NCBI GenBank assembly: GCA_009380095.1 | Contig: WHSL01000028.1 | Coordinates: 1-40,043, forward strand | Reading direction: 5' to 3' | Source of the DNA: Streptosporangiales bacterium | Lineage (GTDB): Bacteria > Actinomycetota > Actinomycetes > Streptosporangiales > Streptosporangiaceae | Length of the DNA: 40,043 nucleotides | Shown here: piece by piece, positions 12,674 to 28,313 of the stretch | Layout of the letters: each line of letters begins with the position of its first letter | How positions within the stretch are numbered: the stretch's first letter is position 1 | Translations under genes and position numbers: made by a program | The notes under the pieces: model-generated | The model's input: only the letters and a program-made list of their open reading frames with translations | What the model was told of the DNA's origin: nothing | Database searches by the model: none

Positions 12674-14362
12674 TCAAGCCAGGTGGTGAAGGCGGGTGAG
12701 CGGGAGCTCGGTCGCGTGGTGCAACGGGATCTCCTTCCCGTCCACGCGGACCGGCACCGGCTCCGGCGCGACCTGCACGCTCGGTGTGGCGGTGTTGTGC
12801 AGCATGTCGGCGCTGCCGAGCCCGCGGCTGCCGGAGATCGGCGCGTACCGGCGTCCGGGCGGGAGCGCGGCCCGCGCGGCGCTGTCGGCCAGGCAGGACG
12901 CGCTCACGAACACGTGCGCGAGGCGGGCCGGCGCGTCGCCGAGCCCGCCGTAGAACGGCAACATCCGGCGCGGCTGGGTGAGCCGCGTCGAGCCGGACCC
13001 GGAGCCGGCCGCGCCCCAGGCCACGAAGCCCGACTTCACCACCAGCTCCGGCTGCGCGCCGAACCAGGCGGGCTGCCACAGCACGAGGTCGGCGAGCAGG
13101 CCGGGCCGTACGGACCCCACGTGCGCGGCGATGCCGTGCGCCACGGCCGGGTTGTGCGTGAGCTTGGCCAGGTAACGCAGTACGCGGGCGTTGTTGGCCG
13201 TCTCCGGCCCGGTCTCTCCAGCCAGCGTGGCCTGCACGTGCGCGAGCTGCCAGGTACGGCGCCCGACCTCGCCGATCCGCCCCATGCCGAGCGCGTCGGA
13301 GTTGATGATGGCGATCGCGCCGTCGTCGTGCAGCCGGTTCTCGGCGGCGATGGCGTGCTCGCGGATCCTGCTCGCGGCGATGGCGTGGTCGCTGGGCAGC
13401 GCGGCGTGGGCGCGGTGCACGGTCATCGTCATCGGCAGCAGCTCGGCCACCGTGGCGGGGGTGAGCGGCAGGGTCGGCGTGGTCGAGGAGGTGAGCACGT
13501 TCTCCTCGCCGACGATGGTCAGCAGGTCGGGGTGCCCGCCGCCGCCCTCCACGTGGTAGGCGTGCACGGTCCGCCCGTCCACCGCGGCGAGCGTGTCGCT
13601 CAGGTAGCCGGACTCGTTCAGCGTGTCGGTGTGCAGCGCGACCGGCAGGTCCACGGCGTCCGCGAGGCTCAGGCAGGTGTCCACCACGGGCGGCGTGGCG
13701 CCCCAGTCCTCGTGGATCTTGAAGCCGCCGCACCCGGCGAGCACCGCCCGCTCCAGCAGCGCCGGCTCGGTGGACGAGCCGCGGGCCAGGAACGCCGCGT
13801 TCACCGGCACCTGGGCCCAGCCGTCGATCAGCGCGTGCAGGTTGGCGCGCGGATTGGCGCCGACGTCCCAGACGCCGCCCATGCCCATGCCCACCAGGGT
13901 GGTGACGCCCGCCGCCAGCGCCGCGGGCACCAGCTCGGCGTTGGACAGGTGCACGTGCGAGTCGACGATCCCGGGCGTGGCGATCATGCCCTCACCGGTG
14001 ATCATCGCGGTGTGGGCGTCCACCTCGAGGGTGACGCCGTCCTGGACGCCCGGGTTGCCGGCGCGGCCGACGCCGACGATGCGGCCCTCCTTGATGCCGA
14101 TGTTCGTCTTGCGCACGCCGAGCAGTGGGTCGATCAGTACGACCCCCAGCACGACCATGTCGAGCGCGGAGTCGCGGCCCGCCGCGCCGGAGACCAGGGC
14201 GCCATGCCGTGCCGTCTTGCCGCAGCCGCCGAGCATCTCCTCGCCGGGCTCGGTGTCGTCGTGCTCGACCTCCACCCACAGGGCGGTGTCGGCGAGCCTG
14301 ATCCGGTCCCCGGTGGTCGGGCCGTACAGCCGCGCGTACTCGCGGCGCGTGAGCCGGCTCAT
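12674..14362 (-). CDS. ureC: Urease subunit alpha, divergent
   Basis: Urease alpha hydrolyses urea at a di-nickel centre. The 562 residues are near the usual length. Nickel ligands are recognisable: His136 and His138 (SHVHL), Lys215 and His217 (FKIHEDWGATP, the lysine that is carbamylated), His244 (ALHTDTLNESG), His270 (YHVEG) and Asp356 (NSDALGMGRIGE). On the mobile flap the usual Cys-His pair reads Val315-His316 (MTVHRAH), so the flap cysteine is absent while the acid His is kept. Sequence after the first HxH also departs from classical ureases. The gene follows a UreA-UreB fusion through a bridging ORF. No nickel-insertion genes (ureD, E, F, G) are in the window. Confidence 0.88.
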   Translation of the reverse strand: MSRLTRREYARLYGPTTGDRIRLADTALWVEVEHDDTEPGEEMLGGCGKTARHGALVSGAAGRDSALDMVVLGVVLIDPLLGVRKTNIGIKEGRIVGVGRAGNPGVQDGVTLEVDAHTAMITGEGMIATPGIVDSHVHLSNAELVPAALAAGVTTLVGMGMGGVWDVGANPRANLHALIDGWAQVPVNAAFLARGSSTEPALLERAVLAGCGGFKIHEDWGATPPVVDTCLSLADAVDLPVALHTDTLNESGYLSDTLAAVDGRTVHAYHVEGGGGHPDLLTIVGEENVLTSSTTPTLPLTPATVAELLPMTMTVHRAHAALPSDHAIAASRIREHAIAAENRLHDDGAIAIINSDALGMGRIGEVGRRTWQLAHVQATLAGETGPETANNARVLRYLAKLTHNPAVAHGIAAHVGSVRPGLLADLVLWQPAWFGAQPELVVKSGFVAWGAAGSGSGSTRLTQPRRMLPFYGGLGDAPARLAHVFVSASCLADSAARAALPPGRRYAPISGSRGLGSADMLHNTATPSVQVAPEPVPVRVDGKEIPLHHATELPLTRLHHLA

Positions 14363-14427
14363 GCGGTGCCTCCCCGCCGGCCGCGGCTCCGCCGCGTGGG
14401 AGTGCCGGCATGCCGCGCCGCGCTCAT
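14359..14427 (-). CDS. 22-residue Arg-rich bridging ORF between the urease genes
   Basis: The ORF begins in an ATGA overlap with the stop of the urease gamma/beta gene (14424-14427) and ends in an ATGA overlap with the urease alpha start (14359-14362). It fills the 61-bp gap exactly. The peptide begins MSAARHAGTP and ends RGRRGGTA, with seven arginines. It could carry ribosomes from one gene to the next by termination-reinitiation, or be the residue of a deleted gene. Whether the peptide has a role of its own cannot be seen. Confidence 0.45.
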   Translation of the reverse strand: MSAARHAGTPTRRSRGRRGGTA

Positions 14428-15008
14428 GACGCTGCCTCGCCGCCGAGCCGGACGACGCCGACCTCGCGCCGCTCGCCGGGGGCCACGCGGACGGCGGTGC
14501 CGGCGGGCACGTCGAGCCGGTACCGGCCGGGCGCGTCGAGGCCGACCTGGAGGGCGGGGTTCAGCGTGTCCAGCGGCATGTGGGAGGACACCCACACCGG
14601 CCGGTCGCCCGTGTTGTGCAGAACCGCCGTGGCCCGGTCGCGGCCCGGCGCCAGCTCCACCTCGCCCTCGGCGGCGGCCACCGCGCCGGGTCCGTGCGGA
14701 TCGGCGGGCCCGAACGGCGCGTCCACGTGCACGAGCACGGTCCCGTACGGGAACAGCGCCTCCACCTGCAGCGACGGCACCGCCCCCGGGATCCCCTCGA
14801 CGAGCCGGTCGGGCGGCACCACCTCCCGCGCCCGCCGCACGACCTCCGCGTACGGCACCCCGTCCCACGCCCACTCGCAGATCTCGTCGCAGACCAGCGC
14901 CACCGCCTCGGCCGCCCCCAGCCGCGCCCCCCGCTCCAGCCGCCGCCGCGCCAGGGACGCCCCGGCGTGCAGCAACAGCCGCTCCGACTCCCGTGGCGTC
15001 ACGTGCAT
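14424..15008 (-). CDS. ureAB: Urease gamma-beta fusion subunit, divergent
   Basis: The 194-residue protein joins the two small urease subunits. Residues 1-100 are gamma-like: MHVTPRESERLLLHAGASLA, GAAEAVALVCDEI, and PSLQVEALFPYGTVLVHVD. Residues 105-194 are beta-like: GDRPVWVSSHMPLDTLNPAL and AGTAVRVAPGERREV. The usual beta segment SHYHF is changed to SHMPL. The ATG has aggaga nine bases upstream, and that ribosome site overlaps the stop of an upstream gene remnant. Fusion plus a divergent UreC is a known alternative urease type in actinomycetes; from memory Streptomyces has such a pair beside its classical urease. Confidence 0.85.
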   Translation of the reverse strand: MHVTPRESERLLLHAGASLARRRLERGARLGAAEAVALVCDEICEWAWDGVPYAEVVRRAREVVPPDRLVEGIPGAVPSLQVEALFPYGTVLVHVDAPFGPADPHGPGAVAAAEGEVELAPGRDRATAVLHNTGDRPVWVSSHMPLDTLNPALQVGLDAPGRYRLDVPAGTAVRVAPGERREVGVVRLGGEAAS

Positions 15009-15019
15009 ATGCAGGTCTC

Positions 15020-15175
15020 CTAGCGGCCGAGGACCTGCTTGAGCAGGTCGGGGCGGTCGGTCATGATGCCGTCGCCGCCGAGGGCGACGAGCTCGCGCAG
15101 CCGTTCAGGTCCGTGAAGTCTCCAGCACGTCCGCACCGAGCGCCACCGCCGTCGCCGGAACGGCCGCCTCCGCTC
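15020..15175 (-). pseudogene. Remnant of a glycerophosphodiester phosphodiesterase gene
   Basis: Two short GDPD pieces remain in different frames. The downstream piece (PERLRELVALGGDGIMTDRP, then DLLKQVLGR and a stop at 15020-15022) is the C-terminal end of the TIM barrel, where GVDGIMTDRP is conserved. Just upstream, PATAVALGADVLETS matches the N-terminal strand that normally carries the metal-binding LETD. About 200 residues between them are missing. The remnant lies between the class II aldolase and urease genes, and its stop codon sits in the urease ribosome site. Confidence 0.65.
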
Positions 15176-15189
15176 GTCCACGGCCGTCA

Positions 15190-15900
15190 TTATGCAGACC
15201 GGAAGGCACCGCCGACATCGAGGCGGCGGACCAGGTAGTCCCAGACGGCCTCCTGGGCCCGCTCGTTGTAGATGTGCTCCCGCTTGGCCAGGGACTCCTC
15301 GGGGGACGACCAGGTGGGCCGGCCGTCGGCGGCAGTCGTGAGCAGTTGCTGGGCGCAGGCCCGCTCCAGCACCACCGCCGCCACGGTGGCCTCCCGCAGC
15401 GTCCGCCCCACGGTGACGATGCCGTGGTTGACGAGGAACAACGCCCGCGCCTCACCGAGCCTCGTGGCCACCGCGCGCCCCAGCTCCGAGGTGAGGATGA
15501 GGTCCGCCGTCTGGGTGAACCGCGGCACCGTCGGCGGCACGAAGAGGTTGGCCGCGTGGCTCACCGGCAGCAGCGGCTCCCCGGCTGCGGCCAGCGCCAC
15601 CGCGTGCGGCGGATGCGTGTGCACCACGCCGCCCACGTCGGGCCGCGCCGCCATGACCTCGGTGTGGATCGGGTACTCGCTGTGCCGCGCCCCGCCCCCC
15701 TCCAGGACGGCGCCGCCGGGGTCGACGAGATGCACCCGCGCGGGCGTCACCTCCTCCAGACCCCACTCGGCGGCCTTGATCCATACGCCCCTCCCCCGCG
15801 GGTCCCGCGCGGACGCGTGCCCCCAGATGAGGTCGCCGTGGCCCTCCGCGGCGAGGATCCGGGACGAGGTCGCGACGAGGTCGCGGAGCGCGTCACCCAT
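15190..15900 (-). CDS. Class II aldolase/adducin family protein, last of the aromatic operon
   Basis: The 236-residue protein belongs to the zinc enzymes related to fuculose-phosphate aldolase; several members are decarboxylases. The zinc-binding HTHPPH is near residues 93-98 and the third ligand is in VNHGIVTVG near residue 157. EYPIHTEVMAARPDVGGVVH is typical. In Gram-positive phthalate pathways a member of this family (PhtC) decarboxylates 3,4-dihydroxyphthalate; the adjacent dioxygenase and IclR genes make such a role plausible, though the family also includes sugar-phosphate enzymes. It lies 18 bases after the IclR stop. A second family member is encoded at 16731-17459. Confidence 0.85.
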   Translation of the reverse strand: MGDALRDLVATSSRILAAEGHGDLIWGHASARDPRGRGVWIKAAEWGLEEVTPARVHLVDPGGAVLEGGGARHSEYPIHTEVMAARPDVGGVVHTHPPHAVALAAAGEPLLPVSHAANLFVPPTVPRFTQTADLILTSELGRAVATRLGEARALFLVNHGIVTVGRTLREATVAAVVLERACAQQLLTTAADGRPTWSSPEESLAKREHIYNERAQEAVWDYLVRRLDVGGAFRSA

Positions 15901-15918
15901 GGAAAATCATGCCTCCGC

Positions 15919-16713
15919 TCAGAGCAGCAGCGGGTTGATCTCCTCCGCCGCCTTCTCCAGTTCGGTCAGGATGTGCCGCCGCGTCGCCGCCGACATCCGG
16001 CTGACCGGCGCGGACGCGGTGATCGCCAGCGGCGTGGAGCGCCCCGGCTGCAGTGCGACGCTGATCGAGGCGACGCCCTCCTCGCTCTCCTCGTCGCTGG
16101 TGGCGTGGCCGCGGCGCCGTACCTCGGCCAGCTCCTTGAGCAGGTCGGTACGGGTGGCGATGGAGTTCGGCGTGAGCCGCGGCAGCCGCTCGCTGGAGTA
16201 GAGCCGGTGCAGCCGCTCGTCCGGCAGCGTGGCCAGCATGGCCTTGCCGCTGGACGTGCAGTGCGCCGGTACGGAGAGCCCGAGCCGCCCGCCGACCCGC
16301 AGCGCCCGATCGCTCTCGATGGAGTCGATGAAGTGCACGTCCCCGCCCTCGAGGCGGCCGAGGTGCACGGTCTCCCCCAGCTCGTCCTTGAGCCGCTCCA
16401 GCACGGGCCGGGCCAGGGTCCGTACGTCCAGCCGGCGCAGCACGCCGAGCGCGAGCCCGTCCAGCGTCGGGCCCGGCAGGTAGCCGCGGGTCTCGCCGTC
16501 CTGCCGGACGAACCCGCGGTACTGCAGCATGGCGAGCAGCCGGTGCGCGGTGGAGGAGGCCACGCCCAAGTGGCGGCTGACGTCGGTGAGCCGCAGGTTC
16601 GGCCGCTCCCCCAGCAGGAGCAGCACCCGGAGCGCGTTGTCGACCGATTCGATCGGATACTGCGGCGCGGCACCGTACTCCGGAGGGGACGGGTAGCCCT
16701 CGGTTCGCTCCAT
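15919..16713 (-). CDS. IclR-family transcriptional regulator
   Basis: The 264-residue regulator has an N-terminal winged helix (about 22-85: ESVDNALRVLLLL, LRLTDVSRHLGVASSTAHRLL, MLQYRGFVRQ). The effector domain follows (about 100-264: GETVHLGRLEGGDVHFID, SVPAHCTSSGKAMLA, GVASISVAL). Members often respond to aromatic acids, and phthalate clusters of Gram-positive bacteria carry an IclR regulator. It is cotranscribed with the operon it may control and sits between two aldolase genes, which is unusual. The palindromes upstream of the carrier gene (21734-21759) are candidate sites. The ATG is the only start placing the helix-turn-helix at the usual distance. Confidence 0.92.
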   Translation of the reverse strand: MERTEGYPSPPEYGAAPQYPIESVDNALRVLLLLGERPNLRLTDVSRHLGVASSTAHRLLAMLQYRGFVRQDGETRGYLPGPTLDGLALGVLRRLDVRTLARPVLERLKDELGETVHLGRLEGGDVHFIDSIESDRALRVGGRLGLSVPAHCTSSGKAMLATLPDERLHRLYSSERLPRLTPNSIATRTDLLKELAEVRRRGHATSDEESEEGVASISVALQPGRSTPLAITASAPVSRMSAATRRHILTELEKAAEEINPLLL

Positions 16714-16730
16714 GTTCGAAGTCTGGCACG

Positions 16731-17459
16731 TCAGGAGAGCCGGGCCAGCTCGTGCCGCCAGGCCGTGCCGCGGTTGAACCCGGCACCGAGGTCGGGCAGC
16801 TCGGCCAGGTCCTCGGCGGGCAGGTCGCGCAGCTCCCCGCCGGCGCTCACCACCGTCAGCGAGAGCCGCGCGATCCGGTCCACCGACACCGCACGCAGCA
16901 CCGCCTCCGGTACGTCCTCGCCGGTGGCGGTCAGGCCGTGCCCGCGCAGCAGCACGACCGGGCGGTCGCCGAGCGCCTGCACCATCTCCGCGGCGAGCCG
17001 CCGGTTCCGGATCAGTACGCCGCGCGGGTGGACCGGCACCCCGCCGGCCGCGAGCCGGGCGCCCGGGATGTCGTACGCGCCCACGATCGGGCGGATCCGC
17101 AGCCCCGCGAGGTCGGCGGCGACCACCTCCGGCGGATGCGCGTGCACCACCGCGCCCACGTCGGGGCGGGACCGCAGCACCTCGGTGTGCAGCGGCAGCT
17201 CGTTGGGCGGGCTCCACCCGTCCAGCTCACCGGGGGCGCCGGTCTCGCCGTCCAGCGTGACGAGCCGGACGTCGCCGGCCGTGGTCCAGGCGAGGCCGCG
17301 TTCCCGCGGTCCGCGGCACCGGACGAGCAGCCGGTCCGCGTCGATCCGCAGGCTGACATGGCCGAGGTGCCCGTCGGCCAGGCCGCGCGAGGCGAGCACC
17401 CGGCAGGCGTCCGCGATCTCCGCGCGCAGCGGCGCCAGTTCCGTACTGGGGTCGGTCAC
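16731..17459 (-). CDS. Class II aldolase/adducin family protein, possible aromatic decarboxylase
   Basis: The 242-residue protein has the family's zinc site: HAHPPE near residues 105-110 (the third position is Glu instead of His) and RGHGLTATG near residue 172. The N-terminus LASRGLADGHLGHVSLRID is the standard first half. It overlaps the dihydrodiol dehydrogenase stop by ATGA, the tightest coupling of the two aldolase-like genes, so it is the better PhtC-like candidate. HAHPPE and HTHPPH differ between the two paralogues, suggesting different substrates. Activity is inferred from context. Confidence 0.85.
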   Translation of the reverse strand: MTDPSTELAPLRAEIADACRVLASRGLADGHLGHVSLRIDADRLLVRCRGPRERGLAWTTAGDVRLVTLDGETGAPGELDGWSPPNELPLHTEVLRSRPDVGAVVHAHPPEVVAADLAGLRIRPIVGAYDIPGARLAAGGVPVHPRGVLIRNRRLAAEMVQALGDRPVVLLRGHGLTATGEDVPEAVLRAVSVDRIARLSLTVVSAGGELRDLPAEDLAELPDLGAGFNRGTAWRHELARLS

Positions 17460-18244
17460 CCTGTCCTCACTCCCGTTCCGCCATCGGTGTGCACGACGTC
17501 TCCGGTGATGCCGCGGGCGCGGTCCGAGGCCAGGAACACGTAGCTGCCCGCGTGGTCGGCGCCGGACAGCGCCACCCGCAGCGGCGTCCGGTCCGCGAGC
17601 CCCGCGGCACGGTCCGGGCCGTCGTCGAGCCGCCGGCCGCGCTGCCCGAGCGCGCCGAGCCCGCGCAGATCGGTGCCGAGCGTGCCGCCCGGCGCCACCC
17701 CGTTGACCCGGATCTCCGGCGCCAGCTCGTGCGCCAGCGCGGCGACCAGCCCGCGGACCGCGTGCTTCGACGCCACGTAGAGCACGCCGCCGCGGCCGGG
17801 CCGGTACGCCGAGGTGGACTCGGTGAGGATGACGCAGCCGCGGGCCTCGCGGAGCGCAGGCAGCGCGGCCTTCACCCCGTGCAGGTGACTGCGCACGTTG
17901 ACCCGGAACATCTCGTCGAACGCGGCGTCCAGGTCGCCGGCCGCCAGCTCCCCCAGGCCGCGGTAGAAGTCGAACACCCCGACGCAGCAGACGAGCACGT
18001 CGAGGCCCCCGTACGCGCCGAGCGCCGCCTCCACCGCCTCCTCGTTGGCGGCACGCGTGGACGCGTCGCCGGTCACGACGGGAACGCCGGGCAGCTCCTC
18101 GGCGAGCCGCGCGGACTTGGCCGGGTCCAGCTCAAGCGCGGCCACCCGCGCGCCCTCGGCGCGGAAGGCGTCCAGCACGGCCCGGCCGATCCCCGAGCCG
18201 GCCCCCACGACGAGCGCGCGGCGACCCTCCAGCCAGCCGGTCAC
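17456..18244 (-). CDS. SDR, probable cis-dihydrodiol dehydrogenase
   Basis: The 262-residue classical short-chain dehydrogenase has GAGSGIGRAV at the N-terminus, NVRSHLHG, the catalytic region ILTESTSAYRPGRGGVLYVASKHA (Ser, Tyr, Lys spread across it) and GDVVHTDGG at the end. The layout is like BphB/HcaB dehydrogenases, which rearomatise the cis-diol made by a ring-hydroxylating dioxygenase. The GTG start at 18244 gives MTGWLEGRRALVVGAG and overlaps the preceding stop by GTGA. The gene lies three genes after the dioxygenase alpha subunit. Confidence 0.87.
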   Translation of the reverse strand: MTGWLEGRRALVVGAGSGIGRAVLDAFRAEGARVAALELDPAKSARLAEELPGVPVVTGDASTRAANEEAVEAALGAYGGLDVLVCCVGVFDFYRGLGELAAGDLDAAFDEMFRVNVRSHLHGVKAALPALREARGCVILTESTSAYRPGRGGVLYVASKHAVRGLVAALAHELAPEIRVNGVAPGGTLGTDLRGLGALGQRGRRLDDGPDRAAGLADRTPLRVALSGADHAGSYVFLASDRARGITGDVVHTDGGTGVRTG

Positions 18245-18468
18245 GCGGGATCCTCCTCGATCAGCGGCTGCCCCGGCTTGCCGATCATCGCGCTGAACGT
18301 CGCGGTGTTCTGCCAGGTCAGAGCCTCGACCTCGAAGGGGCACAGGGCCACCCGGTGGCCGGACTTGGGCGACTCGACGAGCAGTCTCGCCCCGTTGCGG
18401 GTCCGGATCAGGCTCACCCGGATCTCGGCGAACTCATTGCCCAGCTCGATGACGGGTTCCTCGCTCAT
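18241..18468 (-). CDS. 75-residue conserved operon protein of unknown function
   Basis: It overlaps the dioxygenase beta stop (ATGA) and the SDR start (GTGA), so it is clearly a gene of the operon. The sequence is beta-rich: FAEIRVSLIRTRNGARLLVE then SGHRVALCPFEVEALTW. It has one cysteine and no metal or nucleotide motif, so it is not the missing Rieske ferredoxin. Short proteins like this are sometimes annotated as dihydrodiol dehydrogenase in actinomycetes, apparently from context. A structural or assembly role for the dioxygenase is possible; nothing in the sequence proves it. Confidence 0.72.
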   Translation of the reverse strand: MSEEPVIELGNEFAEIRVSLIRTRNGARLLVESPKSGHRVALCPFEVEALTWQNTATFSAMIGKPGQPLIEEDPA

Positions 18469-19037
18469 AGGAAGATCGCCAGGTTCTGGGTGCGCAGCAC
18501 CGCGTCGTCCACCAGGATCCGGCGGCGGGCCAGCAGCCAGCGGCCGTCCTGGCGGCGGAGCAGGTCCTCGCGGCCCGCCGAGATCAACGCCGGCTCCCGT
18601 ACGTCCCCGCGGCTGCGGTAGAGCAGCACCGCGGAGTCGGCGACGAGATGATCCGGGTCGGGCGTGGCGAACGTGCGCACGTTGGTGATGTGGTGCCGCA
18701 GCCGGGACGGCGGGTCCTCGGTCCACGCGTGCTCGGTCTGGAAGCGCGCCACGCGCCGGCTCAGCGAGTACCTGTTCTCGTCGAAGTGGGCCATCCCCGG
18801 GGATACGTCGTAGCCCGCGGCCCGCGCGGTGGTGACCCGTACCGGCATCAGGTAGTGCACGTCGTCCGTGACCAGGGCGAGCCAGGCGTCGTAGTCCTGG
18901 GCGTCGAGCAGGTACGCCTCGTCGACCAGCCAGCGGTGCGCGGTGAGGTGCCGTTCGTCGCCGTACGGGAGGCTGTCGCCGGTGCGCTCGATCGTGGAGG
19001 CGTGCCCACCGAGCCGGGACTCCGTTGCGCGGGTCAT
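18465..19037 (-). CDS. Ring-hydroxylating dioxygenase beta subunit
   Basis: The 190-residue protein is the small subunit of a Rieske non-heme iron dioxygenase, with the NTF2-like fold. LVDEAYLLDAQDYDAWLALVTDDVHYLMPV is the family N-terminus (shown in pieces: LLDAQDYDAWL, TDDVHYLMPV), followed by RYSLSRRVARF, RLRHHITNVR and a C-terminal LARRRILVDDAVLRTQNLAIFL-like end. It stabilises the alpha3beta3 hexamer and helps shape the pocket. The ATG overlaps the alpha subunit stop. The closest remembered annotation is 3-phenylpropionate/cinnamate dioxygenase beta, which does not fix the substrate. Confidence 0.9.
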   Translation of the reverse strand: MTRATESRLGGHASTIERTGDSLPYGDERHLTAHRWLVDEAYLLDAQDYDAWLALVTDDVHYLMPVRVTTARAAGYDVSPGMAHFDENRYSLSRRVARFQTEHAWTEDPPSRLRHHITNVRTFATPDPDHLVADSAVLLYRSRGDVREPALISAGREDLLRRQDGRWLLARRRILVDDAVLRTQNLAIFL

Positions 19038-20368
19038 GCGCTCACCTCCCGCTCCAGGTGGTCCAGCCAGCGGTTCAGCAGGTGGCGCTGGTTGTACTCG
19101 CCGTACCCGACGCGGGCCTCGCCAGGGCCGGCGAACTCCTCCGGCGGCAGCGCCGGCACCAGCGGCGTGTCGTCGGGTCGCAGGCCCATCCGGCTGTTGA
19201 GTTGGAGCCGGCGGGCCATCGAGCCGCCGGCGGTGTGCGTCAGCGACACCCAGTTCTCCACGTCGTCCTGCTCGAACATGCCGGTGCTGCCGAAGCACAT
19301 GAGATAGGCCTTGTACGACAGCGCCTTGAAGTCCTCCGGCGCGCCCGCGTCCACCGCGAACCAGGACAGCACCTCGGTCTCGTCCGGCCCGATCGGCTGC
19401 CACGTACGGATCGAGATGAACGGCAGCACGTCGTCCGACTCCTCCACCCGCGGCCAGTTGTGCACCAGGCTCAGGTTGGGGAACAGCGAGGCCGCGGAGA
19501 CCATGAAGCCGTCCCGCCCGACGACGTCGAGCTGCCCGCGCGACCAGGTCTTCTTCATGGTCTCGATCATCGGATCCGGATAGCCGACGTGGGAGAGCCG
19601 TTCCTCCAGCGAGCCGGGCGGCAGCTTGTACGTGGTGCCGCCCCCGTTGCCCGCCCAGTACGTGGCGCCGTCCTTGCGCTTCTCCGCCTTGGGCTCGCGG
19701 AACAGCCCGATCTCCACCACGCTCGTGTGGGTGTGCGGGGTGTGGTACATGTCCCCGGCGAAGTTCTCCGCGCCGATCTTCCAATTGGCCTTGATCCGCC
19801 AGCGCTGCGGGCCCGACAGCTCGATGCCCGTCGGCGACTGGCGGGTGTAGTAGTCGAGGTAGAAGGCGAAGTCGCCGAGGTACGCGCGGAGCGGCGGGGC
19901 GTCCTCGTCGAGGCTGATGAAGATCAGCCCGTTGTAGGTGTCCAGCGCGGGCGCGGGCAGCAGCGTCCGGCCCTGGCGCGGGAAGCCCTCCTCGCCGCCG
20001 TACGCGTCCCGGTGGAACGGCAGCCCGGCGAGCCGCCCGTCGTTCCGGTACGACCAGCCGTGGTACGGGCAGCGGAAGTGCGACGCGTTGCCCATCTCCG
20101 CCCGGCAGACCTGCATGCCGCGGTGCAGGCACATGTTGAACATGGCGCGGACCTCGCCGTCCTCGCCGCGGGCTACGATGAACGAGTCGGCGAGCACCTG
20201 CCGTACGACGTAGTCGCCCGGGTCCGGGATCTCCGAGACGTGGCCGACGAAGACCCAGGCGCGGCTGAACAGCCGTTCCCGTTCGAGGGCGAACACCTCC
20301 GCGTCGTTGTAGATGTGCGCCGGGATCATCCCCCGCCGCACGGCCGCCGCGTCGAAGGGCAACTGCAT
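19034..20368 (-). CDS. Aromatic ring-hydroxylating Rieske dioxygenase alpha subunit
   Basis: The 444-residue catalytic subunit adds both atoms of O2 to an aromatic ring. The Rieske 2Fe-2S ligands are Cys80, His82, Cys100 and His103 (CLHRG ... CPYHGW). The mononuclear iron site is in NFAGDMYHTPHTH: bridging Asp206, His209, His214. A later Asp in DDVENW completes the facial triad. Length and motifs are those of intact enzymes. It lies 11 bases after the carrier stop and is coupled to the beta subunit. No ferredoxin or ferredoxin reductase is in the operon, so electrons must come from elsewhere. Confidence 0.93.
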   Translation of the reverse strand: MQLPFDAAAVRRGMIPAHIYNDAEVFALERERLFSRAWVFVGHVSEIPDPGDYVVRQVLADSFIVARGEDGEVRAMFNMCLHRGMQVCRAEMGNASHFRCPYHGWSYRNDGRLAGLPFHRDAYGGEEGFPRQGRTLLPAPALDTYNGLIFISLDEDAPPLRAYLGDFAFYLDYYTRQSPTGIELSGPQRWRIKANWKIGAENFAGDMYHTPHTHTSVVEIGLFREPKAEKRKDGATYWAGNGGGTTYKLPPGSLEERLSHVGYPDPMIETMKKTWSRGQLDVVGRDGFMVSAASLFPNLSLVHNWPRVEESDDVLPFISIRTWQPIGPDETEVLSWFAVDAGAPEDFKALSYKAYLMCFGSTGMFEQDDVENWVSLTHTAGGSMARRLQLNSRMGLRPDDTPLVPALPPEEFAGPGEARVGYGEYNQRHLLNRWLDHLEREVSA

Positions 20369-20379
20369 CGATCGTCCTC

Positions 20380-21678
20380 TCAGACACTCGCCGGCACGAT
20401 GAAGACGAGCCAGCTCACGATGGGCGCGGTGACCGCCATGGCCATCGACCACGCGAACATCACCCGGAACTGCGACCTGCGGTGCTCCTCGGGGGCGCTG
20501 GCCAGGGTGAGCGCGCCGACCGAGGAGAACGGGGAGGCGTCCACCACGGTGGCCGAGATCGCCAGGGCCACGACCATCCCGGTCACTCCGACGTCGCCCT
20601 GGGCGAGGAAGGGCACCGAGAGCGGGAGCAGCACCCCGAGCAGCCCGGCGCTGGAGGCGAACGCGGAGCTGACCGCGGCGACCAGGCAGATCAGGAACGC
20701 GGCCAGCAGCGGGACGCCGAGGCCGGCGATGCCCCCGCCGACGACGTCGATGGTCCCGTACCGCTGCAGCGCGCCGACGAAGGTGACGACGCCGCAGATC
20801 AGCAGCACCACGGGCCAGACGATGAGCTTCTCCCCGCCGGTGAACCGGCCGGAGAAGACCGCGTGCAGCAGCGCCGCGCCGACCAGTGCGAGCAGGCCGA
20901 TCTCCAGGCCGAAGCCGATCGCGCTGACCGCCACGGCGAGGATGACCAGCAGCGTCGCGACCTGGTCGGTGCGGAGCGGGGTCCGCTCCGGGACGCCGGT
21001 GCTCGTCGCCAGCGCGGCCCCGGGGCCGCCCGCCGGGGGTGCCGCGACCGCGACGTAGCCCTCGCGCGCCTGGCGGATCAGCTTGCGCCCGCCGAAGAGT
21101 AGGAAGATCACTACGGCCAGGGCGAGGTTGTACGCGGCGTTGCCGAGGAACAGGGCGGCGACGTTGAACTCCACCCCGGCCTTCTCCGCGCCCTGCTGGA
21201 GGATGATGGTCAGGCCGCCGAACGGGGAGAAGTTCCCGAAGCAGGAGCCGTGCATGACCATCAGCGCGGTCATCCTGCGGTCGATGCCGTACCGGTCCCC
21301 CAGGCGCAGGCAGAGCGGGGCGAGCATGGCGACGCCGGCCGGGCCGAGCGCGCCGGCCAGCGTGGGCACGGCGGAGAACACGAAGATCACCCACGGGACC
21401 AGCAGCGGACGGTCGCCGAGCAGGCCGACCGCCCGGTCGATCACCCACTCGATGGTGCCGTTCACCGCCGCCAGGCCGAAGAGGTACGTGACGCCGACGA
21501 GCAGCAGGAACAGGTCGGGCGGGAAGCCGGACAGGGCCTGGTCGAAGTCCTCACCGACGACGAGGCCGCCGATCAGCACGGTTGCGATGAGGGCGAGGGC
21601 ACCGATGTTGACGGGGCGTACGGTCCCGATGACGAAGATGGCTATCAGCGCCAGCACGCCGATGACGTGGACGGACAT
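20380..21678 (-). CDS. MatC-family dicarboxylate/anion carrier
   Basis: The 432-residue integral membrane protein has about twelve hydrophobic helices. The N-terminus (LIAIFVIGTVRPVNIGALAL, IGGLVVGEDFD) is the MatC_N-type segment of dicarboxylate carriers, and later parts (HGSCFGNFSPFGGLTI, DASPFSSVGALTL) are the two re-entrant-loop motifs of the SLC13/CitMHS superfamily. As first gene of the operon it would import the aromatic or dicarboxylic acid degraded by the following enzymes, in keeping with a phthalate-like substrate. The leader contains overlapping palindromes and a candidate promoter. Confidence 0.85.
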   Translation of the reverse strand: MSVHVIGVLALIAIFVIGTVRPVNIGALALIATVLIGGLVVGEDFDQALSGFPPDLFLLLVGVTYLFGLAAVNGTIEWVIDRAVGLLGDRPLLVPWVIFVFSAVPTLAGALGPAGVAMLAPLCLRLGDRYGIDRRMTALMVMHGSCFGNFSPFGGLTIILQQGAEKAGVEFNVAALFLGNAAYNLALAVVIFLLFGGRKLIRQAREGYVAVAAPPAGGPGAALATSTGVPERTPLRTDQVATLLVILAVAVSAIGFGLEIGLLALVGAALLHAVFSGRFTGGEKLIVWPVVLLICGVVTFVGALQRYGTIDVVGGGIAGLGVPLLAAFLICLVAAVSSAFASSAGLLGVLLPLSVPFLAQGDVGVTGMVVALAISATVVDASPFSSVGALTLASAPEEHRRSQFRVMFAWSMAMAVTAPIVSWLVFIVPASV

Positions 21679-27482: not shown

Positions 27483-27554
27483 TCCCAGCCCGGCCGCACA
27501 TCGGGAGGTGATCGTTCTCATTTCACGGGAATCAGCTTGGGGACATGCGAAACC

Positions 27555-28313
27555 ATGACCTACGACACCGACCCGTACCGGTTCTCGCGGATCGGCGACG
27601 CGGAGCTGCTCGACGTGGCCAAGGCGGTCGGCGAGGCCGGCTCCACGCTCTGCGTACACGCGGAGAACAACGAGATCATCAAGACCCTGCTCGCCGATGA
27701 GGCCAACCGGGGCTCGACAGACCCGCGCGTGCACGGCCGTACGCGCCCGCCCGTCTCAGAGACGCTCGGCGTGCTCACCGCGATGGAGATCGCCGCGCAC
27801 CAGGGCAACGCACTGCACCTGTGCCACCTCTCGCTGGGGCGCTCCACCGAGCTGGTCCGGTGGTATCAGCGGCAGGGCGTGGACATCACGTTCGAGACCT
27901 GCCCGCACTACCTGCTCTTCACCGAGGACGACATGGTCCGGCAGGGCGGCGTGCTGAAGATCAACCCACCGCTGCGCGGCGCGGCCGAGCGCGAGGCCAT
28001 GTGGGACGCGGTGGCCTCCGGCCTGGCCACGGTGATCTCCTCCGACCACGCCCCGTGGTCCATCGAGATGAAGACCCACGAGCGGATCCTGGACAACCAC
28101 TCGGGCGTGCCGGGCACCGAGACGCTCGTTGCGGTCACGCTCGGCGAGGCGCTAAGGCGGTACGGCCCGGGCCGCGCGTTCGCCGCCGCCGTCGACGCGC
28201 TAACCTCGGCACCCGCCGACCGGTACGGCATCGGCCACCGCAAGGGCCGCCTCCAGCCCGGGTACGACGCCGACATCACGGCTCTCACCCCCACCGGCGA
28301 CACCGGTACGTGA
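27555..28313 (+). pseudogene. Allantoinase-like gene missing its N-terminal third
   Basis: Residues correspond to the C-terminal two thirds of allantoinase (AllB, dihydroorotase family). Visible are TDPYRFSRIGDAELLD, the metal-ligand histidines in VHAENNEI and LHLCHLSLG, and the aspartate in SSDHAPWS. The N-terminal beta-sandwich, the HxH pair and the carbamylated lysine are absent, so it cannot hold the normal di-metal centre. The break lies just before 27555. The 3' end is intact enough to keep a GTGA overlap with the next gene. Confidence 0.75.

Follow-up and report, generated by a model that had tools for sequence, protein, structure and literature searches.

A widespread actinobacterial family of urease-fold proteins with fused small subunits and a possible role in substituted-urea hydrolysis

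The 40,043-nucleotide stretch of DNA analyzed here (the window; contig WHSL01000028.1, or C105, of the Streptosporangiales bacterium assembly GCA_009380095.1) encodes a divergent two-gene urease that consists of a ureC-like gene and a ureAB-like gene. Sequence comparison indicates that the combination of fused small subunits with an altered UreC is no oddity but represents a widespread actinobacterial urease-fold family, which is conserved and, judging by gene context, functionally distinct from the classical urease. The clade to which the window pair belongs, denoted clade A below, appears to mature without the accessory proteins UreD, UreF and UreG. Urea is probably not its main substrate; hydrolysis of substituted ureas is the activity that we tentatively favor.

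The gene pair, its family and its active site

In Pfam searches, the UreC-like open reading frame (ORF) is matched by Urease_alpha (131 bits, above the cut-off) and Amidohydro_1 (150 bits), whereas the UreAB protein comprises Urease_gamma (residues 1-98) and Urease_beta (residues 107-191), in agreement with the original prediction, made from the letters of the window alone, of a divergent two-gene urease with fused small subunits. The UreC-like protein belongs to the NCBIfam subfamily PRK13207, 'urease subunit alpha' (673.6 bits; cut-off 354), but falls short of the urease equivalog TIGR01792 (564.6 bits; cut-off 680). An AlphaFold2 model built on a 57-sequence alignment (predicted local distance difference test, pLDDT, 85.6; predicted template modeling score, pTM, 0.91) has the fold of a urease alpha subunit, with VIA Z-scores of 46.3-49.5 to the solved ureases listed and 25 to the next amidohydrolases.

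Scanning of genome contigs with a six-sequence profile yielded 261 pattern matches including 151 relatives, of which the best 80 were kept; the scan patterns spanned the substrate loop and the Lys motif but not the flap, so that conservation of the loop is partly built in and that of the flap is not. All 80 relatives (63-85% identical), drawn for the most part from Pseudonocardia, Actinomycetospora, Saccharopolyspora, Streptomyces, Nonomuraea, Microbispora and Geodermatophilus, share a set of ten residues that includes the flap Val, and none contains an internal stop. Both ORFs of the window are open, and the ratio of nonsynonymous to synonymous substitution rates (dN/dS, NG86) between the window pair and eight Pseudonocardia relatives is 0.20-0.31, which suggests purifying selection, although most of this history may predate the move of the pair. 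Because the residue set is fixed in all 80 relatives and dN/dS is in this range, the pattern is more than chance. Clade A is patchily distributed: in a search of 396 genomes across the phylum at E 1e-100, nothing but the window itself matched at more than 52% identity.

In the tree of 98 UreC rows, a single branch (SH-aLRT 99) separates 45 divergent from 53 classical rows, and the divergent rows form three clades, A (26 rows), B (12) and C (7). The same branch was recovered (100/99) in a careful 56-row tree from which the columns of the loop, GAGGGH, the flap and Asp363-Ala366 had been removed. In both trees, which are unrooted, the window UreC falls in clade A, a starred clade separate from clade B, and it is 46-50% identical to the clade-B rows compared.

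The window UreC retains H136, H138, K215, H217, H244, H270, D356, flap H316, R332 and D219; among the 98 aligned rows, on which all pocket statistics below are based, the bimetal ligands and the position of the carbamylated Lys are identical in every row, and the flap His, Arg and Asp triad (as defined in PMC7433671) is likewise invariant. According to the same source, urea is bound in Sporosarcina pasteurii urease (SPU) by the backbone carbonyls of Ala170, Gly280 and Ala366, and the flap is held by His323, Asp224 and Arg339 (PMC7433671). All three urea-contacting segments are changed in the window protein: the loop around Ala170 is rewritten, Ala279 is deleted and Gly occupies position 366. 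The shortening of the GAGGGHAP segment by two residues is specific to clade A, with both gaps present in 26 of 26 rows and in none of the 72 others. Gly at the Ala366 position is found in 43 of the 45 divergent rows, compared with Ala in 48 of the 53 classical ones; the flap residue is Val in 44/45 and Cys in 48/53, respectively, and is followed by His in all 98. In the beta part, Pro is the fourth residue of the SHMPL motif in 80 of the 84 hits from clade A and all 7 from clade C, whereas the 12 clade-B hits all have His there, as do 49 of the 50 classical ones. These comparisons confirm what had been read from the letters about the retained nickel-binding positions, Val315-His316 at the flap and SHMPL (Table 1).

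Loss of the flap Cys was considered as the key feature and rejected, because this residue is also lost in 5 of the 53 classical-side rows (L066, L078, L044, L060 and L174). Two of these, L066 and L078, are actinobacterial UreC proteins that combine a flap Val with an ordinary-type substrate loop. The flap Cys is the lesser change, given that the substrate loop, the GAGGGHAP segment and the Ala366 position are altered as well, and, by the alignment, it is the combination of pocket changes rather than any single one that marks the divergent group, the clade-A deletions excepted.

Table 1. Coordinates of the gene pair and of the altered active-site segments in the window
Feature	Position	Strand	Description
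ureC-like gene	12674..14362	(-)	562 aa; predicted catalytic subunit of a divergent urease-fold hydrolase; Pfam/NCBIfam, clade A in trees, AlphaFold2 model
ureAB-like gene	14424..15008	(-)	194 aa; fused gamma and beta subunits; Pfam
Flap Val315-His316 codons	13415..13420	(-)	Cys-His in most classical ureases
Rewritten substrate loop, residues 158-172 (GMGMGGVWDVGANPR)	13847..13891	(-)	replaces the classical-type 20-residue segment
GGGG273-276	13535..13546	(-)	lacks the Ala of GAGGGH, and the Ala of HAP is gone too; alignment
Gly359	13286..13288	(-)	position of SPU Ala366; alignment
SHMPL in the beta part	14571..14585	(-)	mostly SHYHF or SHFHF in classical ureases

Accessory genes and gene neighborhoods

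The absence of accessory genes, noted in the original prediction, holds for the locus and for contig C105 but not for the genome: in the 6.09 Mb assembly (413 contigs), matches to UreF, UreG and UreD are confined to contig C43, where a classical urease adjoins ureG, ureF and ureD, so that the search for a second urease cluster proposed there had a positive outcome. The classical ureC on C43 (L047) is split between two overlapping frames (ORFs of 498 and 175 aa) near the contig end, indicative of a frameshift or an assembly error.

Across the 59 genomes searched, UreF was detected in 41; the 18 that lack it are 16 of the 55 holders of clade A, the other 39 having UreF, and two clade-C genomes (G024 and G028). 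In these 18 genomes UreD was never found and UreG never exceeded its cut-off, whereas the positive controls were recovered in 4 of 4 cases in each search. Weak UreG matches of 23-35 bits, perhaps to HypB-type proteins, occur in eight of the 18, and the remaining ten have none; the full-domain urease-alpha matches in the 18 do not exceed 143 bits, compared with 167-178 bits for the classical copies of the controls. One of the 16 clade-A genomes without accessory genes (G476, locus L121) is recorded as a complete chromosome, whereas most of the others are draft assemblies and the completeness of G028 is only 84%. Assembly gaps are unlikely to account for the joint absence of all three genes in all 18 genomes. 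Because UreD, UreF and UreG are all undetected in 16 of 55 clade-A genomes, maturation of clade A without them is well supported, and we consider it likely.

The neighborhoods of the 80 clade-A loci, which are not all independent given that many come from related species and that the UreC proteins of L098 and L099 are identical, reveal a recurrent cassette. UreAB is encoded in 79 loci (L110 is cut by the contig end), a metabolite/H+ symporter (MHS)-type protein in 68, a PucR-type HTH_30 protein in 63 and an Amidohydro_3 hydrolase in 62, with all four present in 51 of the 80. The arrangement is regular as well: 56 of the 62 Amidohydro_3 genes follow ureC on the same strand, at most 130 bases downstream; 57 of the 63 PucR-type regulator genes are divergently oriented and no more than 900 bases upstream; and the symporter gene lies within 2.1 kb downstream in 62 of 68 cases. 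A thiamine-pyrophosphate enzyme is also encoded in 21 of the 80 loci. No relatives of the regulator, hydrolase, symporter or deiminase (see below) were found in 17 classical-urease loci, most of which have flanks of only 3-5 kb.

Seven clade-A loci, namely five of the 80 (all Nonomuraea) and those of G038 and G039, carry an arginine deiminase (ADI)/dimethylarginine dimethylaminohydrolase (DDAH)-like gene, and in none of the seven was an Amidohydro_3 gene found. In L162, the deiminase-like gene sits between the symporter gene and ureAB, separated from them by about 20 and about 10 bases, respectively. Among solved structures, its product is most closely related to DDAH (3rhy, E 2e-19); the catalytic Cys, His and Glu of DDAH-type enzymes seem to be kept in the alignment, as judged by eye. 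L127 and L163 have only weak ADI/DDAH-like matches (62-77 bits), about 8 kb away and beside a normal cassette. In clade B, 8 of 12 loci have an agmatine-deiminase-like (AguA-like) gene near ureC, whose product finds its best solved match in agmatine deiminase (249 bits).

The clade-B ureAB-ureC pairs on plasmids of Streptomyces anulatus and Embleya, two Streptomycetaceae (L171 and L172), lie beside nonribosomal peptide synthetase-type genes, with adenylation and condensation domain genes and phosphotransferases as neighbors, and may have a role in a specialized-metabolite cluster. Two Pseudonocardia clade-A loci without the usual regulator, hydrolase and symporter (L102 and L136) have a GntP-family permease nearby.

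Possible substrates and alternative readings

Both kinds of deiminase are expected to convert a guanidino compound into R-NH-CO-NH2, and it is because a deiminase association is seen in two clades, A and B, that hydrolysis of substituted ureas is proposed. The family, its conserved residues, the cassette and the absence of detectable accessory genes from some hosts of the pair are computed, and from there on we infer the substrate class, the metal and the roles of the partners. The bimetal site with its carbamylated Lys, along with the flap His, Arg and Asp, would cleave the terminal carbamoyl group of R-NH-CO-NH2 to yield an amine, CO2 and ammonia, and the changed loop, the Gly at the SPU Ala366 position, the loss of Ala279 and the hydrophobic residue at the flap would leave space for R. 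In the usual cassette, a neighboring enzyme would supply the ureido compound, either a guanidino deiminase, which is ADI/DDAH-like in part of the clade-A loci and agmatine-deiminase-like in clade B, or the Amidohydro_3 hydrolase acting via deamination or ring opening; the precursor would be imported by the MHS-type symporter and the system regulated by the PucR-type protein. The metal hydrolase with another substrate suggested in the original prediction agrees with the invariant ligands, the apparent purifying selection, the changed pocket and the catabolic cassette of the relatives.

Somewhat more speculative is the possibility that these genes make up a two-step pathway of guanidino/ureido catabolism, hitherto annotated as urease, in which a urease relative replaces the AguB-type amidases. 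Of 14 genomes tested for AguB, none had a match above its cut-off, and the clade-B genomes G005 and G027 had no relative at all at E 1e-30. Relatives below the cut-off are present in the other 12, controls included, so that this result is only mildly supportive of the substituted-urea reading.

Several observations weigh against substituted-urea hydrolysis. The AguA-like protein scores 301 bits, short of its equivalog cut-off of 382, and the ADI-like swap is confined to one subclade and so probably reflects a single event. In G038 and in each of the ten f20 genomes tested, which are taken as Streptomyces and include two controls chosen without a known clade-B copy, AguB-like proteins were found that stay below the cut-off, with best scores of 255-263 bits. 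Seven of the 80 loci, some on short contigs, lack the regulator, hydrolase and symporter (L102, L119, L131, L136, L146, L148 and L161), 13 contain neither Amidohydro_3 nor a deiminase (four of these end within 2.6 kb downstream), and the only solved relatives of the Amidohydro_3 hydrolase are uncharacterized proteins. Most of the pocket changes also occur singly on the classical side (flap Val in 2/53 rows, Gly366 in 5/53, a short loop of 62-63 residues in 6/53); conversely, one clade-B row keeps the flap Cys and two keep Ala at the 366 position.

The retention of all ligands and catalytic residues and the PRK13207 score would fit a normal urea urease, possibly of low activity, whose assembly is inefficient or unaided, as could be the case in Bacillus subtilis, whose ureABC genes lack accessory genes and confer very low activity according to PMC8600894. 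We regard this as rather unlikely for clade A in view of the missed TIGR01792 cut-off, the altered urea-contacting segments, a cassette that adds a second hydrolase or a deiminase plus an MHS-type symporter, and the retention of the pair in genomes without detected accessory genes. The original prediction had also raised the prospect of a lineage with a uniform residue set and ordinary urease activity; the uniformity is there, and no reported activity was found for the lineage.

A urease that uses iron, manganese or zinc in place of nickel, comparable to Helicobacter mustelae UreA2B2 and acting on urea or a related substrate, appears unlikely, although such a metal could coexist with substituted-urea hydrolysis. 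It would account for the 16 clade-A genomes without detected UreD, UreF and UreG, and the best single-sequence PDB match is indeed H. mustelae UreB2. This match is a tie, jack bean and Helicobacter pylori ureases score higher with the family profile, the H. mustelae structure (3qga) ranks 21st by Foldseek and 31st by VIA, among ties, and the metal cannot be read from sequence. On kinship with the iron urease in particular, the outcome is a tie between UreB2 and other ureases.

The copy in the window and comparison with known systems

No PucR-type, Amidohydro_3 or cassette-symporter relatives were found in the window, and the present role of the pair there is uncertain. The neighbors scanned are phthalate-type genes and molybdenum hydroxylase subunits; the allantoate-pathway remnants originally predicted to flank the pair were not seen among the part of the window ORFs that was scanned. 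Positions 15893-21678 (minus strand) encode a PhtC-like decarboxylase (PhtC equivalog match of 391 bits; cut-off 200), an IclR-type regulator, a cis-dihydrodiol dehydrogenase, the alpha and beta subunits of a Rieske dioxygenase and a MatC-type carrier. Three of the seven Pseudonocardia genomes compared encode homologs that are 77-85% identical to the dioxygenase alpha subunit; elsewhere no match exceeded 41% (one of 19 same-family genomes). The window pair clusters with Pseudonocardia in both UreC trees. CobN, encoded near the window end, matches 14 of the 19 same-family genomes at 72-91% identity and the seven Pseudonocardia at 74-81%. Because the dioxygenase and the pair resemble Pseudonocardia whereas CobN resembles its own family, a Pseudonocardia-like donor is the probable source of both the ureABC-like pair and the phthalate genes. 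Assembly contamination was rejected since the best CobN match (91%) is in the own family, as expected of a genuine contig.

Irrespective of the function of the family in other hosts, the window copy could be a stranded, perhaps decaying, remnant of the cassette, as the missing partners, a broken Amidohydro_3 gene on contig C87 of the same genome and a possible gene fragment directly upstream of ureAB would suggest. This too seems improbable: the ORFs are open and dN/dS is low, even if this signal may mostly stem from the time before the move, and seven of the 80 relatives likewise lack the regulator, hydrolase and symporter. The broken gene (L183, C87:4964-5836) has lost its middle part, and the pieces that are left share 43-61% identity with the cassette hydrolase. 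The upstream fragment (window 15023-15130, minus strand) may be what remains of the C-terminal end of a glycerophosphodiester phosphodiesterase (match to Pfam GDPD_2 below the cut-off, E 0.019). Farther away, at 27537-28313 (plus strand), a short amidohydrolase ORF matches only the later part of Amidohydro_1 and is possibly truncated.

Urease is the textbook case of one enzyme with one substrate, one metal and dedicated nickel chaperones. A widespread relative without detectable chaperones provides a test of whether chaperones, substrate and metal are intrinsic to the fold. If the proposal is correct, the reach of ureases could extend to substituted ureas, 'urease' calls based on ureC hits would over-predict urea use in actinobacteria, and the Streptomyces coelicolor pair SCO5525-5526 would gain a specific, testable role. 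No report of the cassette, of the genome-wide lack of accessory genes or of another substrate was found in non-exhaustive searches of the open-access literature, subscription papers being mostly outside this coverage.

Clade A shares with the classical nickel UreABC of S. pasteurii, Klebsiella aerogenes and H. pylori the fold, the metal ligands, the flap His, Arg and Asp and 39-43% sequence identity, but differs in the flap Val, the changed urea-contact segments, the operon and its occurrence without detected UreD, UreF and UreG. H. mustelae UreA2B2 has the same fold and, presumably, a two-gene layout like that of the window pair, whereas UreB2 retains the flap Cys in the alignment and shows no special closeness to the window protein in sequence or structure. 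B. subtilis UreABC, likened here by its published description, is similarly composed of structural genes without accessory genes but differs in its reported very low urease activity (PMC8600894).

In the second step of the proposed pathway, the analogy is with AguB, which belongs to the nitrilase family and not to the urease fold; here, a urease-fold enzyme would take this step. In the agmatine pathway formed by AguA and AguB, the deiminase yields a ureido compound that then undergoes carbamoyl hydrolysis, as described in PMC9397018. The closest described precedents are the ure(AB)C pairs of S. coelicolor and Streptomyces avermitilis (SCO5525-5526 and SAV2715), which were reported in 2008 to lack accessory genes (PMC2492869) and have been labeled urease clusters and, in 2012, urea-utilizing genes (PMC3293853), with SCO5527 listed in the latter source among homologs of the arginine-decarboxylase pathway; the different name of SCO5526 (nrd) in PMC4991794 is taken as a slip. 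These pairs resemble the window pair in the fused AB subunit followed by C and in the lack of accessory genes at the locus. SCO5525-5526, judged by the layout with SCO5527, would belong to clade B, whereas clade A has its own deletions and its own cassette.

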